A stretch of 35,467 bases of DNA from Methanoculleus frigidifontis (GTDB lineage Archaea; Halobacteriota; Methanomicrobia; Methanomicrobiales; Methanoculleaceae). The stretch lies in the NCBI RefSeq assembly GCF_030464345.1, contig NZ_VCYH01000016.1:1-35467 (forward strand), given 5' to 3'. Of this stretch, positions 26,760 through 35,258 are shown piece after piece. The stretch's first letter is position 1, and each line of letters begins with the position of its first letter. The notes under the pieces are model-generated. The model searched no databases. It saw only the letters and a list, made by a program, of their open reading frames with translations, and was not told where the DNA came from. The translations under genes and the position numbers were made by a program.

Positions 26760-28544
26760 CTACTTCCCCCAGAACGGATCCTGCCGCCGCCGCATGGTGG
26801 TGTACTCCTCGAGGATCTCCTGCATGCTCGGGCTCAGCCGGTCGAGCATCTCCCGTTCGATCACCTTGACGTGCCGTTCCGGGATATCAACGTACAGGTC
26901 GTCGTCGACGTTAATTTGCCGCCCGACGGTCGGGCCTTCGATGGAGACCGCCACCTCCTGGCCGGCCTCGGCCTCATGGATCGTCTCGCTCCGGAGTTGC
27001 ATCTGTTTGAGGTGCCCGATCCTTTTCCCATTCGGGAGCGCCAGGTAGACCCCGCTCTGCAGTTTGCCGCCGAGGATGCGGACGCCGACCACGGCAGGGT
27101 TGCTCTGGCGGAAGATGCAGCCCGGCAGGATCCGCACCTTCGCCGGCATGACGAGCTTCTCGAACTGCTGCCGCTCCATCTCGCGCTTCTTCTCGTCGCG
27201 CCATTCGACGTAGTCGTCGATGAGCTGGTAGATGACGCCGCTCTCGAAGGCACTGACCTGCGGTGACTCCGCCAGGGTATCGACGGCGTCCGGCAGCATC
27301 GGGGTGTTGAAGGCGATGATCGCGCTGTAGAGCGGATTTTTGATCGTGCCCGCCTCGATGACGTCGTGCCGGGTGACCGGGCCGACTTCGGCCTTCAGCA
27401 CCCCGATCCCCTGCGCATCAAGCTCTTTCGAGAGGGCCTCGAGCGCGCCGATGGTATCGGCCTTGATGATGATACCCTCATCGGCGATGGTCACCTGGAT
27501 GTCCTCGATCTCGCTCATCACCTTCTCGATGACCTCGTCCCGGTTCTCACCGCGGACGACCCGCAGCGGCGTGCCGGCGATGACGCCCTCGAGCTTCGGT
27601 GCGGCGACCTTGATACCGGTCGCGGCGGCGACCGACTTGACCCGCTCGAACTTATCCTCGATCAGGATCTCGCTCATCGGCCGGGGCTTTAAGAGCGAGC
27701 GAACCTTCGTGGTGAGGATCTGGTTGTGGCCGGCGACGACGATCTCGTCGCCGACGCTGAGCGTCCCGTCGTAGAGGATGACGTCCAGCGTGGTGCCGAG
27801 GCCGCGCTCCTCCTTCACCTCGAGCACCGTCCCGGCACCGGGGCCTTCCACGCTGAGCGCCAGATTGTCGGTCATGTAGCGCTGGGCAAGCCCGATCAGC
27901 ATCATCAGGACGTCGGAGATACCCTCCCCGGTGAGGGCGCTCGTCGGCACGATACCGACGTTCCGCGCGAAGTCGCGCACCCGGTCGAACCGCTCGGAGT
28001 TGAACCCGAGATCCGAGAGTTTGCCGACGAGTTCGTAGACCTTCGTCTCGAGCATGCCCTGCACGCGTTCGTTCTGTTTTGCGAACGTCGTGGCGAAGGA
28101 TTCGTTCTCGTGAACGCGCCAGCCGTGGATGCGGTCGACTTTGTTCGCCGCGATGACGAATGGCGTCTTGTAGTTCCGCAGGATCTGGAGCGCTTCGATC
28201 GTCTGGGGCTTGAATCCCTCGTTGATGTCCACCACGACGATCGCAAGGTCGGCGAGCGACCCACCGCGCGCCCGCAGGGTCGTGAAGGCGTGGTGCCCCG
28301 GCGTATCGATGAAGAGCAGCCCCGGAATGTTGAACTGCATTTTGGCAAGAGAACTGTTGCCCCGGGCGATCGCCTCGATAGGGACGATTGTGGCTCCGAT
28401 ATGCTGCGTAATGGCACCTGCCTCGGTGTCGACGACGGAAGAGCCGCGGATCGTATCCAGGAGCGAGGTTTTTCCGTGATCGACGTGCCCCAGCACACAG
28501 ACGATCGGGGTTCTGATCTGAGATGTCTTGGACTGTTTCGCCAT
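26760..28544 (-). CDS. infB: Translation initiation factor aIF5B (IF2-like GTPase)
   Basis: The 594-residue factor promotes subunit joining and initiator-tRNA positioning. GTPase motifs are GHVDHGKTS (19-27), DTPGHHAF and AANKVDRIHGW, followed by the beta-barrel domains and the C-terminal initiator-tRNA-binding domain, with RILPGCIFRQSNPAVVGVRILGG and a final MRRRQDPFWGK. The length is normal for archaeal aIF5B without an intein. I choose ATG 28544 because GGTGA stands about nine bases upstream and the protein then begins MAKQSKTSQIRTPIVCVLG. The frame is open much further upstream, but that part is a leader. It is likely cotranscribed with, or just upstream of, rps6e. Confidence 0.96.
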   Translation of the reverse strand: MAKQSKTSQIRTPIVCVLGHVDHGKTSLLDTIRGSSVVDTEAGAITQHIGATIVPIEAIARGNSSLAKMQFNIPGLLFIDTPGHHAFTTLRARGGSLADLAIVVVDINEGFKPQTIEALQILRNYKTPFVIAANKVDRIHGWRVHENESFATTFAKQNERVQGMLETKVYELVGKLSDLGFNSERFDRVRDFARNVGIVPTSALTGEGISDVLMMLIGLAQRYMTDNLALSVEGPGAGTVLEVKEERGLGTTLDVILYDGTLSVGDEIVVAGHNQILTTKVRSLLKPRPMSEILIEDKFERVKSVAAATGIKVAAPKLEGVIAGTPLRVVRGENRDEVIEKVMSEIEDIQVTIADEGIIIKADTIGALEALSKELDAQGIGVLKAEVGPVTRHDVIEAGTIKNPLYSAIIAFNTPMLPDAVDTLAESPQVSAFESGVIYQLIDDYVEWRDEKKREMERQQFEKLVMPAKVRILPGCIFRQSNPAVVGVRILGGKLQSGVYLALPNGKRIGHLKQMQLRSETIHEAEAGQEVAVSIEGPTVGRQINVDDDLYVDIPERHVKVIEREMLDRLSPSMQEILEEYTTMRRRQDPFWGK

Positions 28545-28856
28545 GGGTTTCACCATCCGGTACGAATCGGAGAAGAACTGCCTGTCGCCGGAAACAATGA
28601 TTTTCCGGAAGTTTTCCGGTATTGAGCGCCGGATCTCCTTCACCGTATTGCCCGGCGCTGCATGCGCTGGTACGTAATAGAACACGGACTCTATTAATAA
28701 TTCACCTCCGCGTCCCGGCCGGGGCGGCGAGCATGCCGGCAGCGTGCGTGCGTTCTGCCGCACCACCGCGGCACGGTGCCCGGCACATCCGCCGGGTGAG
28801 GAGAAACACGAAGAGATAGATTAATGAAACCTCCGTACAAATGAAAGAGGGTACCT

Positions 28857-28929
28857 GCCAGGGTGGGGTAGTTGGTTATCCTAAGGGACTGTGGATCCCT
28901 CGACCCGGGTTCGAATCTCGGCCCTGGCC
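28857..28929 (+). tRNA. tRNA-His (anticodon GTG)
   Basis: The 73-nt cloverleaf has acceptor GCCAGGG/CCCTGGC, D stem GGGT/ATCC, anticodon stem AGGGA/TCCCT with loop CTGTGGA (anticodon GTG), and T stem CCGGG/CTCGG with loop TTCGAAT. The discriminator C is typical of tRNA-His. CCA is not encoded. The base before G1 is T, so the G-1 needed for histidylation would have to be added after transcription. Confidence 0.9.
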
Positions 28930-28992
28930 TTCGGAATTCAATTCCGATTCCCTTACCAAATCGTTAAATAGTCTCTTTCTGACCTGGCTTCC

Positions 28993-29223
28993 ATGGGAGA
29001 AGCATTCACAGCACCTACCCAAGCAACGCAGTCGTTTCATCTCGTCAAACCGGAATACGCCGAGTCATCGATCAGGCGTGCCATCGACGAGAACCGGCTG
29101 AACGAAGACGATGCCGCGCTAATCCGGGAGTATGTCGCCGAAATGCGGACGCCGGGCGGGACCGGCACCGCGTGGGCGAACAAGGACACCCCTGCCCCGG
29201 TAAACCGGCGGCGCTTCATCTGA
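28993..29223 (+). pseudogene. Truncated tyrosine-recombinase/integrase N-terminus
   Basis: The 76-residue frame resembles the N-terminal SAM-like DNA-binding domain of archaeal XerC/D-type integrases: IRRAIDENRLNEDDAALIREYVAEMR, then a WANK..NRRRFI element that corresponds to the RANKI...WRRF motif of such proteins as I recall them. It stops where the catalytic domain should follow, and no R...HxxR...Y residues are found downstream. It lies 63 bp after tRNA-His on the same strand, a usual place for an integrase left by an integrated element. A stand-alone short protein is possible but less likely. Confidence 0.6.
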
Positions 29224-29397
29224 CCCTGCCGCACCACCACCATCGCCGAACTGACGGGGAACGCCGCGCTCGAGGCCGCGATGGCGGGTACGGCCGTCCG
29301 GCGAGATCTACTCCCTCACGTTCAGCCGTGACGCAATCCGGATTACGAGCTGCCAGAGCGACACCATCCACACCACCGTTCCGGTGCTCGGGTGAGG
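29224..29397 (+). pseudogene. Decayed C-terminal coding fragment
   Basis: Two adjacent frames join into a protein-like sequence: LTGNAALEAAMAGTAVR in one, then GEIYSLTFSRDAIRITS and DTIHTTVPVLG to TGA 29395-29397 in the next. A single-base shift near 29298 would restore one reading frame. No start or upstream domain remains. The family is not recognised. Confidence 0.35.
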
Positions 29398-29599
29398 GAT
29401 ACCCCTCTCTTTACCGCCCTGAACAAAGGGTTGATCTCGCATTTTTTTCCAATTGTACTCCATGGCCTTGATGGTGGAATTCAGCCCCGGAATGAACCGG
29501 CGCAGAGCACTCCAATTTCCGGGCAACGTCCGAGACGTCGGACCAGGTCTCGCGTCCATCGCTGCATCGCAAAATCTTTTCACACACCCGGACATTTGA

Positions 29600-29801
29600 T
29601 GACCCCCTCGAACCGAAAACCAGATCAGTTACTTTAACCCGCTGCTTTTCGAAGGGTTCTGGCAGGGTATGTACCGGGATTGCAGCGGCGTGAGCGAACG
29701 AGCACCCGCTCGCCGCCGCCGGCCTGGTGCTGCTCCTGGCAGTGCTCGCCATCATCGGCGGCATCGCGGCGATCGTCCTGGCGTCCCGGATGCCGGGGTG
29801 A
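29600..29801 (+). pseudogene. Decayed fragment ending in a transmembrane tail
   Basis: A frame reading ENQISYFNPLLFEGFWQGMYRD is followed in another frame (29694-29801) by NEHPLAAAGLVLLLAVLAII and GGIAAIVLASRMPG to a TGA. Together they look like the end of a membrane-anchored protein broken by a frameshift near 29690. No start codon or ribosome-binding site serves the second part. The segment between 29398 and 29600 shows nothing I can support. Confidence 0.35.
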
Positions 29802-29895: not shown

Positions 29896-30312
29896 ATGAA
29901 AAAATGGATTTTTTTGGTCGCCGGAATTCTTCTCCTGGCCTGTGCCGCCGCCGGGTGCGTCCAGCCGACCGAGGAAGAGGCGCGGGCGCAGCTCTGCCAG
30001 GACCTTGAAGCGCTCGGCTTAGCGCTCCAGAATATGGCAGCTCTCAACGCAAGCTCGTCTGTGGGAGATATCCGGGATGCACGGGATGATGTGCAGTCTG
30101 CTATGGAGAACGTCAGGAACTCTGCCGCCCAGCTCGGTGACGTCCGGGTCGACGAGCTCAACCAGGCGTATAGTGACCTCGATCAGACCGTGCAGAGCCT
30201 TCCCGACGATGCGACTGTCCCTGAGGCCATCCAGACCATCCGCCCGGAGGTGCGGGCTGTCCGGGATGCACGGCAGAACCTCACTGCGGAGCTGAACTGC
30301 ACAACGCAGTGA
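29896..30312 (+). CDS. Small lipoprotein with coiled-coil core
   Basis: The 138-residue precursor has a lipoprotein signal peptide (MKKWIFLVAGILLLACAAAGC; lipid-modified Cys21). The rest is almost entirely helical and acidic, with heptad-like spacing (DIRDARDDVQSAMENVRNSA, VDELNQAYSDLDQTVQSL). GAGAGAGGT precedes the ATG, and TTTTTATATATC near 29830-29840 is a good TATA element. Such small helical lipoproteins are common in Methanomicrobiales; function is unknown. It is an intact gene within a decayed neighbourhood. Confidence 0.8.
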   Translation: MKKWIFLVAGILLLACAAAGCVQPTEEEARAQLCQDLEALGLALQNMAALNASSSVGDIRDARDDVQSAMENVRNSAAQLGDVRVDELNQAYSDLDQTVQSLPDDATVPEAIQTIRPEVRAVRDARQNLTAELNCTTQ

Positions 30313-31220
30313 GCGTGGCGGGAACGGGCCGGCGGGTAGCGGAAGGAACCAGTGCCACGGTCGAGGGGCACTGATTCCCCTACCGCCGGATGTACAGGGT
30401 ATTGGCCGCAGGCTTCTATCCCGGTGTGGCTATGCACGTTTCGGTTCCCGTAGCGGCACCCTGTCGGATTCGCGCAGAAAGCCGGTATGATACGTGGCGA
30501 AAGGAGATCGGCGGTGCGTTCGTCGGCGGTGGAGGGAAGCAGACCGGTGAGATTGCAGGGGTCTCCCCCCGGCCTTCTGGACGCCCGTGTCCCTGCGGCA
30601 TACCTCACGGTGCCGGGTATCCGGGATCGCTCCGGGCGATCTCGTCCTCCTCCGCTTCCTCGGCGTCGTCGGCTATCCAGGGGGGCTGACGGGGCGGTGA
30701 AGCGGCAAGACCATCCTTCAACCGCCTTCCCTCCTGATGCGCCGGCCGCGGCATGCGATACGGAACTCCGGCCGTTCGAGGGCTGCCCGACGAAGAGCAG
30801 CCGGAGCTTTTCGCCTATCAGGAGAGACGGGCCTGTTCGATCCAAGCCCGTGCCGGACAAACTCGAACGAGCCCCGCAGGGTCTCGCCGGCCGCAGTGGC
30901 ATCGCTCCCCGGGATATTCGGTGTCGGGAACCCCCGTCACGATCAATGGCGAGCACGTAAACAGTGGCAATTGTCACCGCCGTACGTGATCGCGTTGGCA
31001 AAGGGGAGCTCAAACCCGACCCGCTCGTCGATAGAACGCCAAACGTGATCTATTCTATTCCGAATGAACGGTGTATTCGATTTTCTGTGAAGTTCTCTCA
31101 ATGCCGGCCGACGAATCTCTCACATCTCGTGTTGCTCGCTGCGCTCTTTGCGATCTCAACGGTGAAATTTCCGGAGGGGCGGAAGAAGACTTTATTCCTT
31201 TCTGCTGGCAATTCTCTCAT
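30313..31220. other. 0.9 kb without a convincing gene, probably decayed
   Basis: All frames are interrupted or of random Arg/Ser/Pro-rich composition. Short protein-like islands appear in different plus-strand frames, such as IAPGDLVLLRFLGVVGYPGG near 30625-30690, FRLSGETGLFDPSPC near 30810 and VSGTPVTINGEHVNSGN near 30920-30965. This suggests an old gene with several frameshifts. From about 31030 the DNA is AT-richer and leads into the promoter of the DUF1254 gene. Confidence 0.35.
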
Positions 31221-32792
31221 ATGGTGCAGAAGAAGAGAATCTACGGTATCATAATTACTCTATTTGTCGCAGCGTGCATTCTGGCAGTCGGTTGCACCTC
31301 CCAACCGGGTGAGACAGCCGTTCCGACTGCGACCCCTTCCGGGACCCCCGCACCCGCGGAGACCACGGCAGGACAACTCTGGAACGCCACGTCCTCGCAG
31401 ATGTCCGAACAGGACATTCAAAACCTCGCCCTAAAGGCATTTGTGTACGGTTTCCCGCTCGTAGAGAGCATGGGCAAGACGTACGAGATGGGCACCTCTC
31501 CGGACGTGCCGCTGGGTGCACCGGTCAACACCTTCGGTCGTACAAGTCTGTTTATCGATGCAGAGGCATGCCCGCGCCTGGGAATCGTGTCGCCCAACGA
31601 CGACACGCTCTACCAGCTGGCACAGGTGGATGCCGGGAAAGAGCCGCTCGTCCTCCACGTGCCTGCCACGGGAGACCGCTACTATGTCATGCAGTTCGTG
31701 GATGCCTGGTCGAACAACTTTGCATACGTCGGCAAGCGTGCAACCGGCACCGCTGAAGGCGAGTTTCTGCTCGTCGCCCCCGGATGGCAGGGGGAGGTTC
31801 CCGCCGGCATGCCCGTCATCCATGCTCCGACACGGGTCTTCACCATCAACGGCCGATTCGCGGTAGCGGGCGAGGAGGATGTGCCGAACGTTGAGGCGCT
31901 GCAGGATCAGGTGTGGCTGACGCCCCTCTCCCGGTACCCGGGAAAACCGGATACATCCAACCGTACAATCGGGGACTGGCCGCTGCCGGGACCCGATCCG
32001 GCGGTGCCCGACGACCTCCTCTTCTGGGAGAAATTCCGGGTCTGGTCCCAGACCTTCCCGCCGGATCCGTCGGAAGCCGGATACCTCGGGCAGTTTGCTC
32101 CACTCGGGCTCTGTGAGGAGAAGAGCCCGTACGTGAACGCCGATCCGTCCCTGGCGGCCGTACTTCGCGACGCACAGCAGGAGGGGCTTGCCATGCTCAA
32201 CGAGGAGATACCAACCATACTGCCGCTGAACGAACAGTGGGGCGATACCCGGGATCTCTTCAACTACAACGTGCATTTCTTCGAGATCGGTACAATCGAC
32301 TCCCCTGAATGGAAGATCGCCGACCCGCAGACTCGCTACGTGATGCGCGGAATTGCCGCCCTCATCGGGCTCTGGGGCAACCACGCCTACGAGGCCTATT
32401 ATCCGGCAACCTATAATGACAACGAGGGACAGTCTCTCTCCGGGGAATATACGTACATCCTGCACTTCAACCAGACACCTCCAGTCGAGGCCTTCTGGTC
32501 GGTCACCATGTACGATGTCCCCCGGTACTATCTGGTCGACAACCCGCTCAACCGATATTCGATCGGAGATCGGACGCCCGGCGTACAGTACAATGACGAC
32601 GGCTCACTGGACATCTTCATCCAGCATGACTCCCCGGGGCCCGACAGGGAGTCGAACTGGCTGCCTGCACCGGCCGGGCAGTTCCGCCCCATCCTCCGCA
32701 TGTACATGCCGGATTCGGGAGTATTCGAGGAAGGGCAGTGGCACATGCCGTCGATCGAGCGCGTGGAGGAGCCCGGAAGCGATCTCCCATAA
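31221..32792 (+). CDS. DUF1254/DUF1214 domain lipoprotein
   Basis: The 523-residue precursor has a lipoprotein signal (MVQKKRIYGIIITLFVAACILAVGC; Cys25) and a Thr/Pro-rich linker (about 30-50). DUF1254 is at about 65-210 (YGFPLVESMGKTYE, SPNDDTLYQLAQVD, RYYVMQFVDAWSNNFAYVG). DUF1214 is at about 400-510 (GEYTYILHFNQTPPVEAFWSVTMYD, YSIGDRTPGVQYNDDGSLDIFIQHDSPG). This two-domain family is widespread in bacteria and of unknown function; it is scattered in archaea, so transfer is plausible. ATG 31221 is chosen for the signal peptide. A CTTTATTC element about 30 bp upstream suggests a short leader. It would sit on the outer face of the membrane. Confidence 0.88.
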   Translation: MVQKKRIYGIIITLFVAACILAVGCTSQPGETAVPTATPSGTPAPAETTAGQLWNATSSQMSEQDIQNLALKAFVYGFPLVESMGKTYEMGTSPDVPLGAPVNTFGRTSLFIDAEACPRLGIVSPNDDTLYQLAQVDAGKEPLVLHVPATGDRYYVMQFVDAWSNNFAYVGKRATGTAEGEFLLVAPGWQGEVPAGMPVIHAPTRVFTINGRFAVAGEEDVPNVEALQDQVWLTPLSRYPGKPDTSNRTIGDWPLPGPDPAVPDDLLFWEKFRVWSQTFPPDPSEAGYLGQFAPLGLCEEKSPYVNADPSLAAVLRDAQQEGLAMLNEEIPTILPLNEQWGDTRDLFNYNVHFFEIGTIDSPEWKIADPQTRYVMRGIAALIGLWGNHAYEAYYPATYNDNEGQSLSGEYTYILHFNQTPPVEAFWSVTMYDVPRYYLVDNPLNRYSIGDRTPGVQYNDDGSLDIFIQHDSPGPDRESNWLPAPAGQFRPILRMYMPDSGVFEEGQWHMPSIERVEEPGSDLP

Positions 32793-33214: not shown

Positions 33215-33756
33215 GAACGCGGGATATTGCTCAACATAATGCAGTCGGATTCTCTGAAAGAGATTTTCAGTTATATTCTGGGGCACAACCGTATTTATCG
33301 GCGGGGTCTGGATCACGCACTCGTCCATCACCCGGTTGACGGAACAGGAAGACCACATCACGTTCCGGATGACGCTCGTGATGCTCTTCTTCGTTTCCCT
33401 GCCTCCCGTTCTTCACGAGCCCGATGACCACCCACCTCGCCGGGGCGGGTTCACGGCTGTCGGTTCTCCTCTACGGGCAGGATCTGTTCTTCGCATCGTA
33501 TCTGCTGAGCACGATCATGCGCTACCTTGCCCGGCGTCCGGAGCTCCTCGTTGACGGCTTTGCGGATGACGACCTCCGGGACATGGTACGGCGACGGCGA
33601 TACGGCGTTGTCTCCAATGGAATCAGGGTGCTGCTCGCGCCGTTCCTGCCTCTGCCGGCAATCGCGATGTATACTACCGTTGCGATCTGCTTTATTCTCC
33701 AGCCCCTGTTCTTCAGGCGAATCATCGTGCGTTCTCTGAAAAAGCAAGCGCAGTGA
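33215..33756 (+). pseudogene. Frameshifted TMEM175 (DUF1211)-like potassium channel
   Basis: Three frames in order give one recognisable protein. First comes SDSLKEIFSYILG (ends about 33285), then TTVFIGGVWITHSSITRLTEQEDHITFRMTLVMLFFVSLPPVL, then LAGAGSRLSVLLYGQDLFFASYLLS and a C-terminal membrane part ending RSLKKQAQ at TGA 33754-33756. The order matches TMEM175/DUF1211 helices, including a GVWITHxxI for the family's usual IYWxxHHxxF. At least two frameshifts (near 33285 and 33415) are needed, and the first helix with the family's N-terminal motif is missing. Either a pseudogene or sequencing errors; the missing N-terminus favours a pseudogene. Confidence 0.65.
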
Positions 33757-33968
33757 GATCCTGCTGCTTTTGGGATCCAGCCCCTCCCCGGGAGAGGTGC
33801 TCACGAGTACGCTCCGCCACGCATCTCCTCGTCCATCGCGGTGGGATTATTCTCATCATACCGGGAGTGCCCGCGGTTCATCGGGTTGGAGAGACCCCGT
33901 ACCTTTATGTATCGGGGAGTGAAGCAGACGGGCATGAGATCGGTCGATGCACCGGGGCCGGAGGGCCG

Positions 33969-35258
33969 ATGAGCACATCTGATAGCAGGGCACCCCCCGC
34001 CTTCCACGTCATGGCAAAACCGACCGGCGCACGGTGCAACCTTGCCTGTGCCTACTGCTTTTACCTGGAGAAGGAAGGGCTGTACCCGGACGGCACCTTC
34101 CGGATGACCGACGAGGTGATGGAGCAGTTCATCCGCCAGACGATCGAAGGGCACCGCGTGCCCGGGGTGACGATCGCCTGGCAGGGGGGAGAGCCGACCC
34201 TGATGGGGCCGGACTTCTTCCGGCGGGCCGTGGCGGTGCAGAAGAAGTATGCACGGCCCGGCACCCGTATCGAGAACACCTTCCAGACAAACGGCGTCCT
34301 CCTCGACGACGAGTGGTGCCGGTTCTTCCACGACAACAATTTCCTCGTCGGCCTCTCCATGGACGGGCCTGCGGAGCTTCACGATACCTACCGGAGAGAC
34401 AGGCGAGGCCGCGGCACCTTTGACCGGGTGTTTGCGGCCGCCCGCCTGCTCCAGAAGCACCGGGTCGCGTTCAATATCCTCTGCGCAGTCAACAGCACGA
34501 ACGCCGATTATCCCCTGGAGGTCTACCGGTTCTTCCGCGACGAACTCTCGGCGCCGTACATTCAGTTCATCCCCATCGTGGAGCGGGAGAACAAGACCGG
34601 ATTTCAGGAAGGGAACACGGTCACCGACCGGTCCGTCCGGCCGGATCAATGGGGCCGGTTCCTGATCGCAATCTTCGATGCGTGGGTCCGGCGAGACGTC
34701 GGCCGGATGTTCGTCCTGAACTTCGACGGAGCGCTTGCTGGCTGGCTCGGCATGGCCGGGACGGTCTGCGTCTTTGCCCCGACCTGCGGCCTTGGCGTGG
34801 CGCTTGAGCACAACGGCGACCTCTACTCCTGCGACCACTTCGTCGAACCCGACTATTTACTCGGCAACATCCTCGAAACACCGCTCGCAAAGCTCGTGGG
34901 CTCGGAGAAGCAGCGGCGGTTTGGGGCGGCCAAGCGCGACACGCTCCCCCGCTGCTGCCGGGAGTGTGCGTTCCTCGCCGTCTGCAACGGCGAGTGCCCG
35001 AAGAACCGGTTCGTCGAGACGCCGGACGGCGAAGGAGGCTTGAACTACCTCTGCGAAGGGTATAAGGCGTTCTTCTCCCACGCCGACCGCCCGATGCGGA
35101 TGATGGCCGGGCTGCTCCGGCAGGGACGGTACGCGGATGAGGTGATGCCGATGCTCGCCGCGGAGGAGAAGCCGGCGGCAAGAGTGGGGCGAAACGATCC
35201 CTGTCCCTGCGGGAGCGGGCTGAAGTACAAGAAGTGCTGCGGAGGCAGGAATCGTTAA
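33969..35258 (+). CDS. Radical SAM/SPASM anaerobic sulfatase-maturase-like enzyme with SEC-C tail
   Basis: The 429-residue protein has the radical-SAM cluster motif CNLACAYC (Cys23, Cys27, Cys30), the WQGGEPTLMG glycine-rich motif near 60-70, FQTNGVLLDD, LSMDGPAELHDTYR and a SPASM region with paired auxiliary-cluster cysteines (VCVFAPTCGLG, LYSCDHFVEP, CCRECAFLAVCNGECPKNRF). This matches anSME enzymes, which convert an active-site Cys or Ser of sulfatases to formylglycine. The C-terminus adds a SEC-C zinc motif, GRNDPCPCGSGLKYKKCC. No sulfatase gene is in the window. ATG 33969 has GGAGGG close upstream, and CTTTATGTA near 33903 is a likely TATA element. Met15 is an alternative start. Confidence 0.88.
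   Translation: MSTSDSRAPPAFHVMAKPTGARCNLACAYCFYLEKEGLYPDGTFRMTDEVMEQFIRQTIEGHRVPGVTIAWQGGEPTLMGPDFFRRAVAVQKKYARPGTRIENTFQTNGVLLDDEWCRFFHDNNFLVGLSMDGPAELHDTYRRDRRGRGTFDRVFAAARLLQKHRVAFNILCAVNSTNADYPLEVYRFFRDELSAPYIQFIPIVERENKTGFQEGNTVTDRSVRPDQWGRFLIAIFDAWVRRDVGRMFVLNFDGALAGWLGMAGTVCVFAPTCGLGVALEHNGDLYSCDHFVEPDYLLGNILETPLAKLVGSEKQRRFGAAKRDTLPRCCRECAFLAVCNGECPKNRFVETPDGEGGLNYLCEGYKAFFSHADRPMRMMAGLLRQGRYADEVMPMLAAEEKPAARVGRNDPCPCGSGLKYKKCCGGRNR

Follow-up and report, generated by a model that had tools for sequence, protein, structure and literature searches.

A tRNA-His gene in Methanoculleus frigidifontis is followed by what is very probably the scar left by an integrative element, of the kind that carries a tRNA-integrase in Methanomicrobiales, now almost wholly deleted. 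The stretch of DNA analysed here (the window) is the whole of contig C16, 35,467 bases long; it belongs to a 3.17-Mb genome in 30 contigs, whose assembly is not closed. The window holds tRNA-His, a pseudogene of the N-terminal part of an integrase that is fused to the remains of a further gene (X) and, to the right, a native gene cluster with a cut DUF308 gene. An element would have integrated at tRNA-His and lost the rest of its DNA by deletion, and similar entries would have occurred several times in the family.

Integrase remnant behind tRNA-His

The tRNA-His(GTG) gene occupies positions 28857..28929 (+). It was found intact by ARAGORN and, at the same place, by the Rfam tRNA family; comparison of the whole window with Rfam returned two tRNAs and nothing else. 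The left neighbour of tRNA-His encodes translation initiation factor IF-2 (26760..28766, -). On its right side, a leader of 63 bp (28930..28992, +) separates the tRNA from an open reading frame. The leader is identical to that of genome G025 at 54 of 63 positions and to that of G002 at 53 of 63, and identity across the window, G025, G002 and G003 ranges between 73 and 86%. The congener G001 has neither leader nor integrase scrap at tRNA-His. The leader was probably brought in by the element.

The reading frame starts with an ATG at 28993, 63 bp past tRNA-His, and spans 76 codons (28993-29223). Its product has no match in Pfam, PHROGs or NCBIfam; direct comparison reveals similar sequence in 37 of 61 genomes including its own (E<=0.01). 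The 76 residues are 38-51% identical to the eight best long open frames (412-448 residues). Intact relatives are 404-416 residues long and contain the Phage_integrase domain PF00589, which was detected in all three whole relatives scanned against Pfam (E 2e-26, 7e-23 and 6e-29). A profile of six intact proteins matches the structures of XerA, XerC-like and XerD proteins. Judged from these comparisons of sequence, the integrase homology of the ORF is far beyond chance.

The similarity does not end with the ORF. It continues beyond the in-frame TGA (29221-29223): the stretch 28993-29259, which includes one stop, reaches 66% across 89 residues, and the profile of intact integrases matches the window at 29005-29256, with no second match in contig C16. 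At the DNA level, the window tracks G025 through the stop and diverges near 29250, where gene X follows. The fragment of about 88 codons (28993..29256, +) thus covers an N-terminal part of a tyrosine recombinase. The catalytic domain of tyrosine recombinases bears the motif R..HxxR..Y; this domain is absent from the fragment, the profile match stopping at 29256. On sequence grounds, 28993-29256 is a pseudogene of an archaeal tyrosine recombinase and not an integrase.

As expected of a tRNA-integrated element, the fragment adjoins the 3´ end of the tRNA and reads away from it. The sequence-only reading had seen here an N-terminal integrase remnant 63 bp after tRNA-His. Homology to the PF00589-bearing relatives confirms this, the similarity ending at about 29256. 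The same reading took the remnant for the edge of a former integrated element, which is supported both by the homology and by the same arrangement of tRNA and integrase in relatives. It named two outcomes that would speak against it, a lack of homology to integrases and conservation of the ORF as a complete gene; the homology is present, and the ORF is complete at tRNA-His in no relative examined. Searches with the remnant itself retrieved 34 stretches from viral contigs (remnant alignment) and 149 stretches from the genome collection (remnant alone), none of them confirmed. With intact integrases as query, 197 hits were confirmed in the genome collection (80 kept), along with two viral contigs.

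The integrase fragment is joined directly by the scrap of gene X (29246..29404, +). Translated in two frames, this segment resembles the C-terminal portion of a protein of 167 residues (E 8e-12), with DNA identity of 84-90% in short blocks; it is decayed and contains internal deletions. Weak similarity to the 3´ flank of X may extend to roughly 29500; from about there to 29700 the sequence has no assignment, which weakens the account of the scar.

Two other interpretations of the fragment have to be considered. The 76-codon ORF might be a domesticated small protein that serves the host, given that its frame is uninterrupted in the window and that parts of it are also open in G025, G002 and G003. 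The pattern of substitutions argues against this. At codon positions 1/2/3, the remnant of the window is 83/86/75% identical to that of G025, 74/87/80% to that of G002 and 73/80/64% to that of G003, while IF-2 gives 84-85/89-92/63-65% in the same three pairs (85/92/64% for G025). In the window-G003 pair third-position identity shows no real excess (64% versus 63% in IF-2). Changes in the remnant are not concentrated at third positions, unlike those in the working IF-2 gene, and we therefore regard the remnant as a pseudogene. Further, residues common to intact relatives are lost from the window ORF, and G015, G017, G022 and G024 have either a shifted or a cut frame. Domestication is thus most improbable. 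The second interpretation is that the fragment represents the int(N) half of an SSV-type suicidal integrase, split upon integration. Such splitting leaves an N-terminal integrase piece at a tRNA, as described in PMC8371274, and this is what the window displays. But in the SSV type the att site lies inside the integrase gene, whereas here the frame begins 63 bp past the tRNA, so that an att site in tRNA-His would lie outside the gene. Relatives integrated at the corresponding position are unsplit, whole genes with PF00589. No matching C-terminal half is present in contig C16, and the C-terminal piece found at C1:334 kb of the same genome belongs to another locus. The split-integrase reading is strongly disfavoured, and we give it hardly any probability.

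Intact relatives and their attachment sites

Intact relatives of the integrase are located directly 3´ of many tRNAs across the whole order, namely those for Glu, Leu, Ser, Thr, Cys, Gln, Asn, Phe and Gly. They usually start about 60-100 bp from the tRNA (measured to the first matched residue) and read away from it; some integrase loci in relatives have no nearby tRNA. Among the loci scanned, there was no full-length integrase at tRNA-His.

Eleven loci with a tRNA at most 400 bp away were sampled, and a repeat of the tRNA end was sought in the following 40 kb (in one of them, G182, the tRNA is on the opposite strand). Five of the 11 have a repeat of 14-19 bp situated 5.6-30 kb downstream, which ends at the tRNA 3´ end or one to three bases past it: 18 bp in G099, 19 in G045, 16 in G158, 14 in G139 and 18 in G196. 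In three shuffles per locus, repeats did not exceed 14 bp for G158 or 12 bp for the remaining four loci. Repeats in G044 (13 bp) and G100 (12 bp) are weak, as shuffles reached 11 and 12, respectively; G057, G125, G159a and G182 have no convincing repeat of the tRNA end within 40 kb. Since the repeats of related elements extend to the 3´ end of the tRNA, tRNA-His (28857..28929) is by analogy presumed to be the former attB/attL.

A direct repeat of the tRNA-His 3´ end, which the sequence-only reading had suggested to look for beyond the window, was sought in all 30 contigs and not convincingly found. The last 22 bases of tRNA-His, with up to three mismatches allowed, occur a single time in the genome, and a scan of the window for a repeat of the tRNA end gave nothing above shuffle level. 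The extent of the element is therefore not proven. Loss of attR would fit the same deletion that we propose below for the right junction. A 17-mer allowed up to two mismatches has one other place, with one mismatch, at C1:292129. We dropped this match because it lies inside an ORF, which we take by eye to be helicase-like.

A second likely island exists in the same genome at C1:295771-334444. It comprises tRNA-Leu at 295771, gene X at 314143, an integrase at 332466-333635 (-) and a C-terminal piece of an integrase near 334034-334444.

Native gene cluster on the right side

The right edge of the scar is the 3´ tail of a gene for a DUF308 membrane protein, about 33 codons and a stop (29700..29801, +). 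It is followed by a lipoprotein gene (29896..30312, +), a DUF1254/DUF1214 gene (31071..32792, +), a small membrane-protein gene split over two frames (33290..33753, +) and an anaerobic sulfatase maturase gene (33753..35258, +; conserved part 33972-35255). The DUF308 gene has about 183 codons in G012, and it is an uninterrupted frame in G007, G009 and G012. The small membrane-protein gene is a single frame in G001 and G023. The maturase occurs in 16 of 41 genomes including its own, the others being 60-89% identical. Only five of the 41 genomes, again with its own, have matches to the DUF1254 gene, which is interrupted by stops in G049 and G002 and reduced to a 61-residue piece in G014.

The cluster genes or their subsets lie within about 2-4 kb in seven relatives. 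The make-up is DUF308-lipoprotein-maturase in G012, DUF308-maturase in G007 and G009, lipoprotein-membrane-maturase in G023 and (partly) G014, and lipoprotein-maturase in G022 and G001, with the membrane gene of G001 standing after the maturase. As the shared gene content indicates, the DNA from 29.70 kb rightward is a conserved chromosomal cluster of the relatives, in which the DUF1254 gene is an interruption.

The sequence-only reading had assigned the decayed and scattered genes up to the right edge to an island, which would then span everything between tRNA-His and the end of the window. Many short or frameshifted frames, the rare DUF1254 gene and the X scrap next to the integrase fragment are in favour of such an extent. 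But the DUF308, lipoprotein, small membrane-protein and maturase genes are clustered in seven relatives, five of which are without an integrase remnant, and the maturase is as widespread and conserved as stated above. The lipoprotein, small membrane-protein and maturase genes are native and do not belong to the element; the claim found no support, and we consider an island of this size very improbable. For the cluster genes it is refuted; only the DUF1254 gene might be of foreign origin.

In four genomes (G007, G009, G012 and G014), tRNA-His and the cluster share a strand, with the cluster 17-22 kb downstream. The intervening genes are mostly common to these four genomes, partly also to G025 and G023, and none of them is in the window, where the DUF308 tail comes only 0.8 kb after tRNA-His and most of the gene is missing. 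In the simplest account, the right junction would have arisen by deletion, in one step or several, of the DNA between a point within the element and one within the DUF308 gene. Since tRNA-His and the cluster are about 450 kb apart in G001, the junction could also stem from a rearrangement and not from a single deletion.

Recurrence of integrase scraps at tRNA-His

Of 36 other genomes of the family, 29 were fetched for a survey of the tRNA-His locus. Integrase scraps are present there in eight of the 29 and none is intact; together with the window, the scrap-bearing genomes represent four genera. Scraps are broken by a frameshift or small deletion in G015, G017, G022 and G024. The scrap of G002 breaks off into a frame that by eye we take to be IS-like, and that of G025 runs into what is presumably a broken enolase-like frame.

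The occurrence of scraps at the same site in four genera, all of them broken and in differing ways, might be explained by one insertion in the common ancestor of the family, which was inherited and then decayed in each lineage. Against this, third-position identity of the scraps exceeds that of IF-2 in six of six pairs, three of them at P<0.05; these three all involve G002 and are thus not independent, and the objection is weakened by the window-G003 pair, where the excess is one point only. Furthermore, 20 of the 29, among them the congener G001, have no similarity at all, and G011 has a leader scrap only. We consider the single ancestral insertion unlikely. Instead we infer, with moderate confidence, that tRNA-His was invaded independently by closely related elements in a number of related lineages, where these elements then decayed. 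The tRNA-His gene would then be an integration site used in this family, with no intact copy found in the genomes examined.

Proposed formation of the scar and relation to known systems

A possible course of events is as follows. As intact relatives suggest, the element would have integrated at the tRNA-His 3´ end without damage to the tRNA, and its integrase would have read away from the tRNA. The integrase would then have lost its catalytic part, and loss of DNA would have joined its initial ~88 codons to the 3´-terminal part of gene X, carried as cargo. A further deletion would have reached from behind X into the native DUF308 gene, removing attR and probably native genes. What may be left of the element is about 0.5 kb, without mobility function. 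The scar by itself is of an ordinary, common kind.

Classical archaeal tRNA-targeting integrases, exemplified by the SNJ2 type in PMC8371274, are similar in two respects: a single-gene tyrosine recombinase lies beside a tRNA, and a short att site is located at the tRNA 3´ end. According to the same source, att sites measure 13-14 bp in SNJ2-type elements and are short in some archaeal elements, in agreement with the 14-19 bp found in five of the 11 relatives of the window element. The likeness noted is one of layout and att length; here the catalytic part is gone and there is no attR. The main text of PMC8371274 contains no occurrence of Methanomicro or Methanoculleus. Elements of archaeal dark-matter islands (PMC4158269) also bear integrases, some of them at tRNA genes. 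They are marked by other genes, such as the prim-pol arCOG07809, and X was not identified in the covered part of that source. Among titles and openings of abstracts, our literature search returned nothing on such elements in Methanoculleus or Methanomicrobiales.

Gene X as presumed cargo

Besides the scrap in the window, the genome has three whole copies of X and one frameshifted copy. X is present in 50 of 61 genomes, its own included, and in 51 of 294 genomes of a phylum sample. All 51 belong to Methanomicrobiales, the order of the window, with no match in other orders of that sample. X falls into no Pfam, NCBIfam or PHROG family, and searches yielded no confirmed viral contig and no phage or plasmid record. 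Sequence comparison with solved structures gave nothing better than E 0.3. The predicted model of X is confident (mean pLDDT 91); a fold search with this model gave no convincing match (best Z 6.7). In seven of 13 X loci viewed, X is accompanied by a divergent gene Y of about 80-110 residues, which weakly resembles PHROGs 1103 and 5225, both of unknown function.

The association of X with integrases was evaluated at 20 integrase loci chosen for long contigs, at least one of which (G196) is itself broken. X occurs within 40 kb downstream at seven of the 20 and upstream at none (Fisher P 0.008), a count that includes G044, G042 and G045, known beforehand to have X downstream. Without these three, the numbers are 4/17 and 0/17 (P 0.10). 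X lies between the integrase and the att repeat in G099, G045 and G158, that is, in all three X-bearing elements with a strong repeat; G139 and G196 have the repeat and no X. Copies of X also exist at a distance from any integrase found, for example in three places on contig C2 of the same genome. Because X is inside three att-bounded elements and limited to one order in the sample, it is probably, though not certainly, cargo of these tRNA-integrated elements.

Tentatively, X and the divergent Y might be the hallmark cargo module of an undescribed tRNA-integrated family spread over the whole of Methanomicrobiales, with scraps of X marking collapsed copies; we regard this as possible rather than probable. 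The locus links the uncharacterised and apparently order-specific family X to integrative elements of methanogens, which are sparsely covered in the literature searched, and X may mark a little-studied element family.

At its left end (395-629, -), the window contains a segment about 71-73% identical to a non-coding repeat of about 230-260 bp. This repeat trails copies of gene X and is also found solitary at other places in the same genome.
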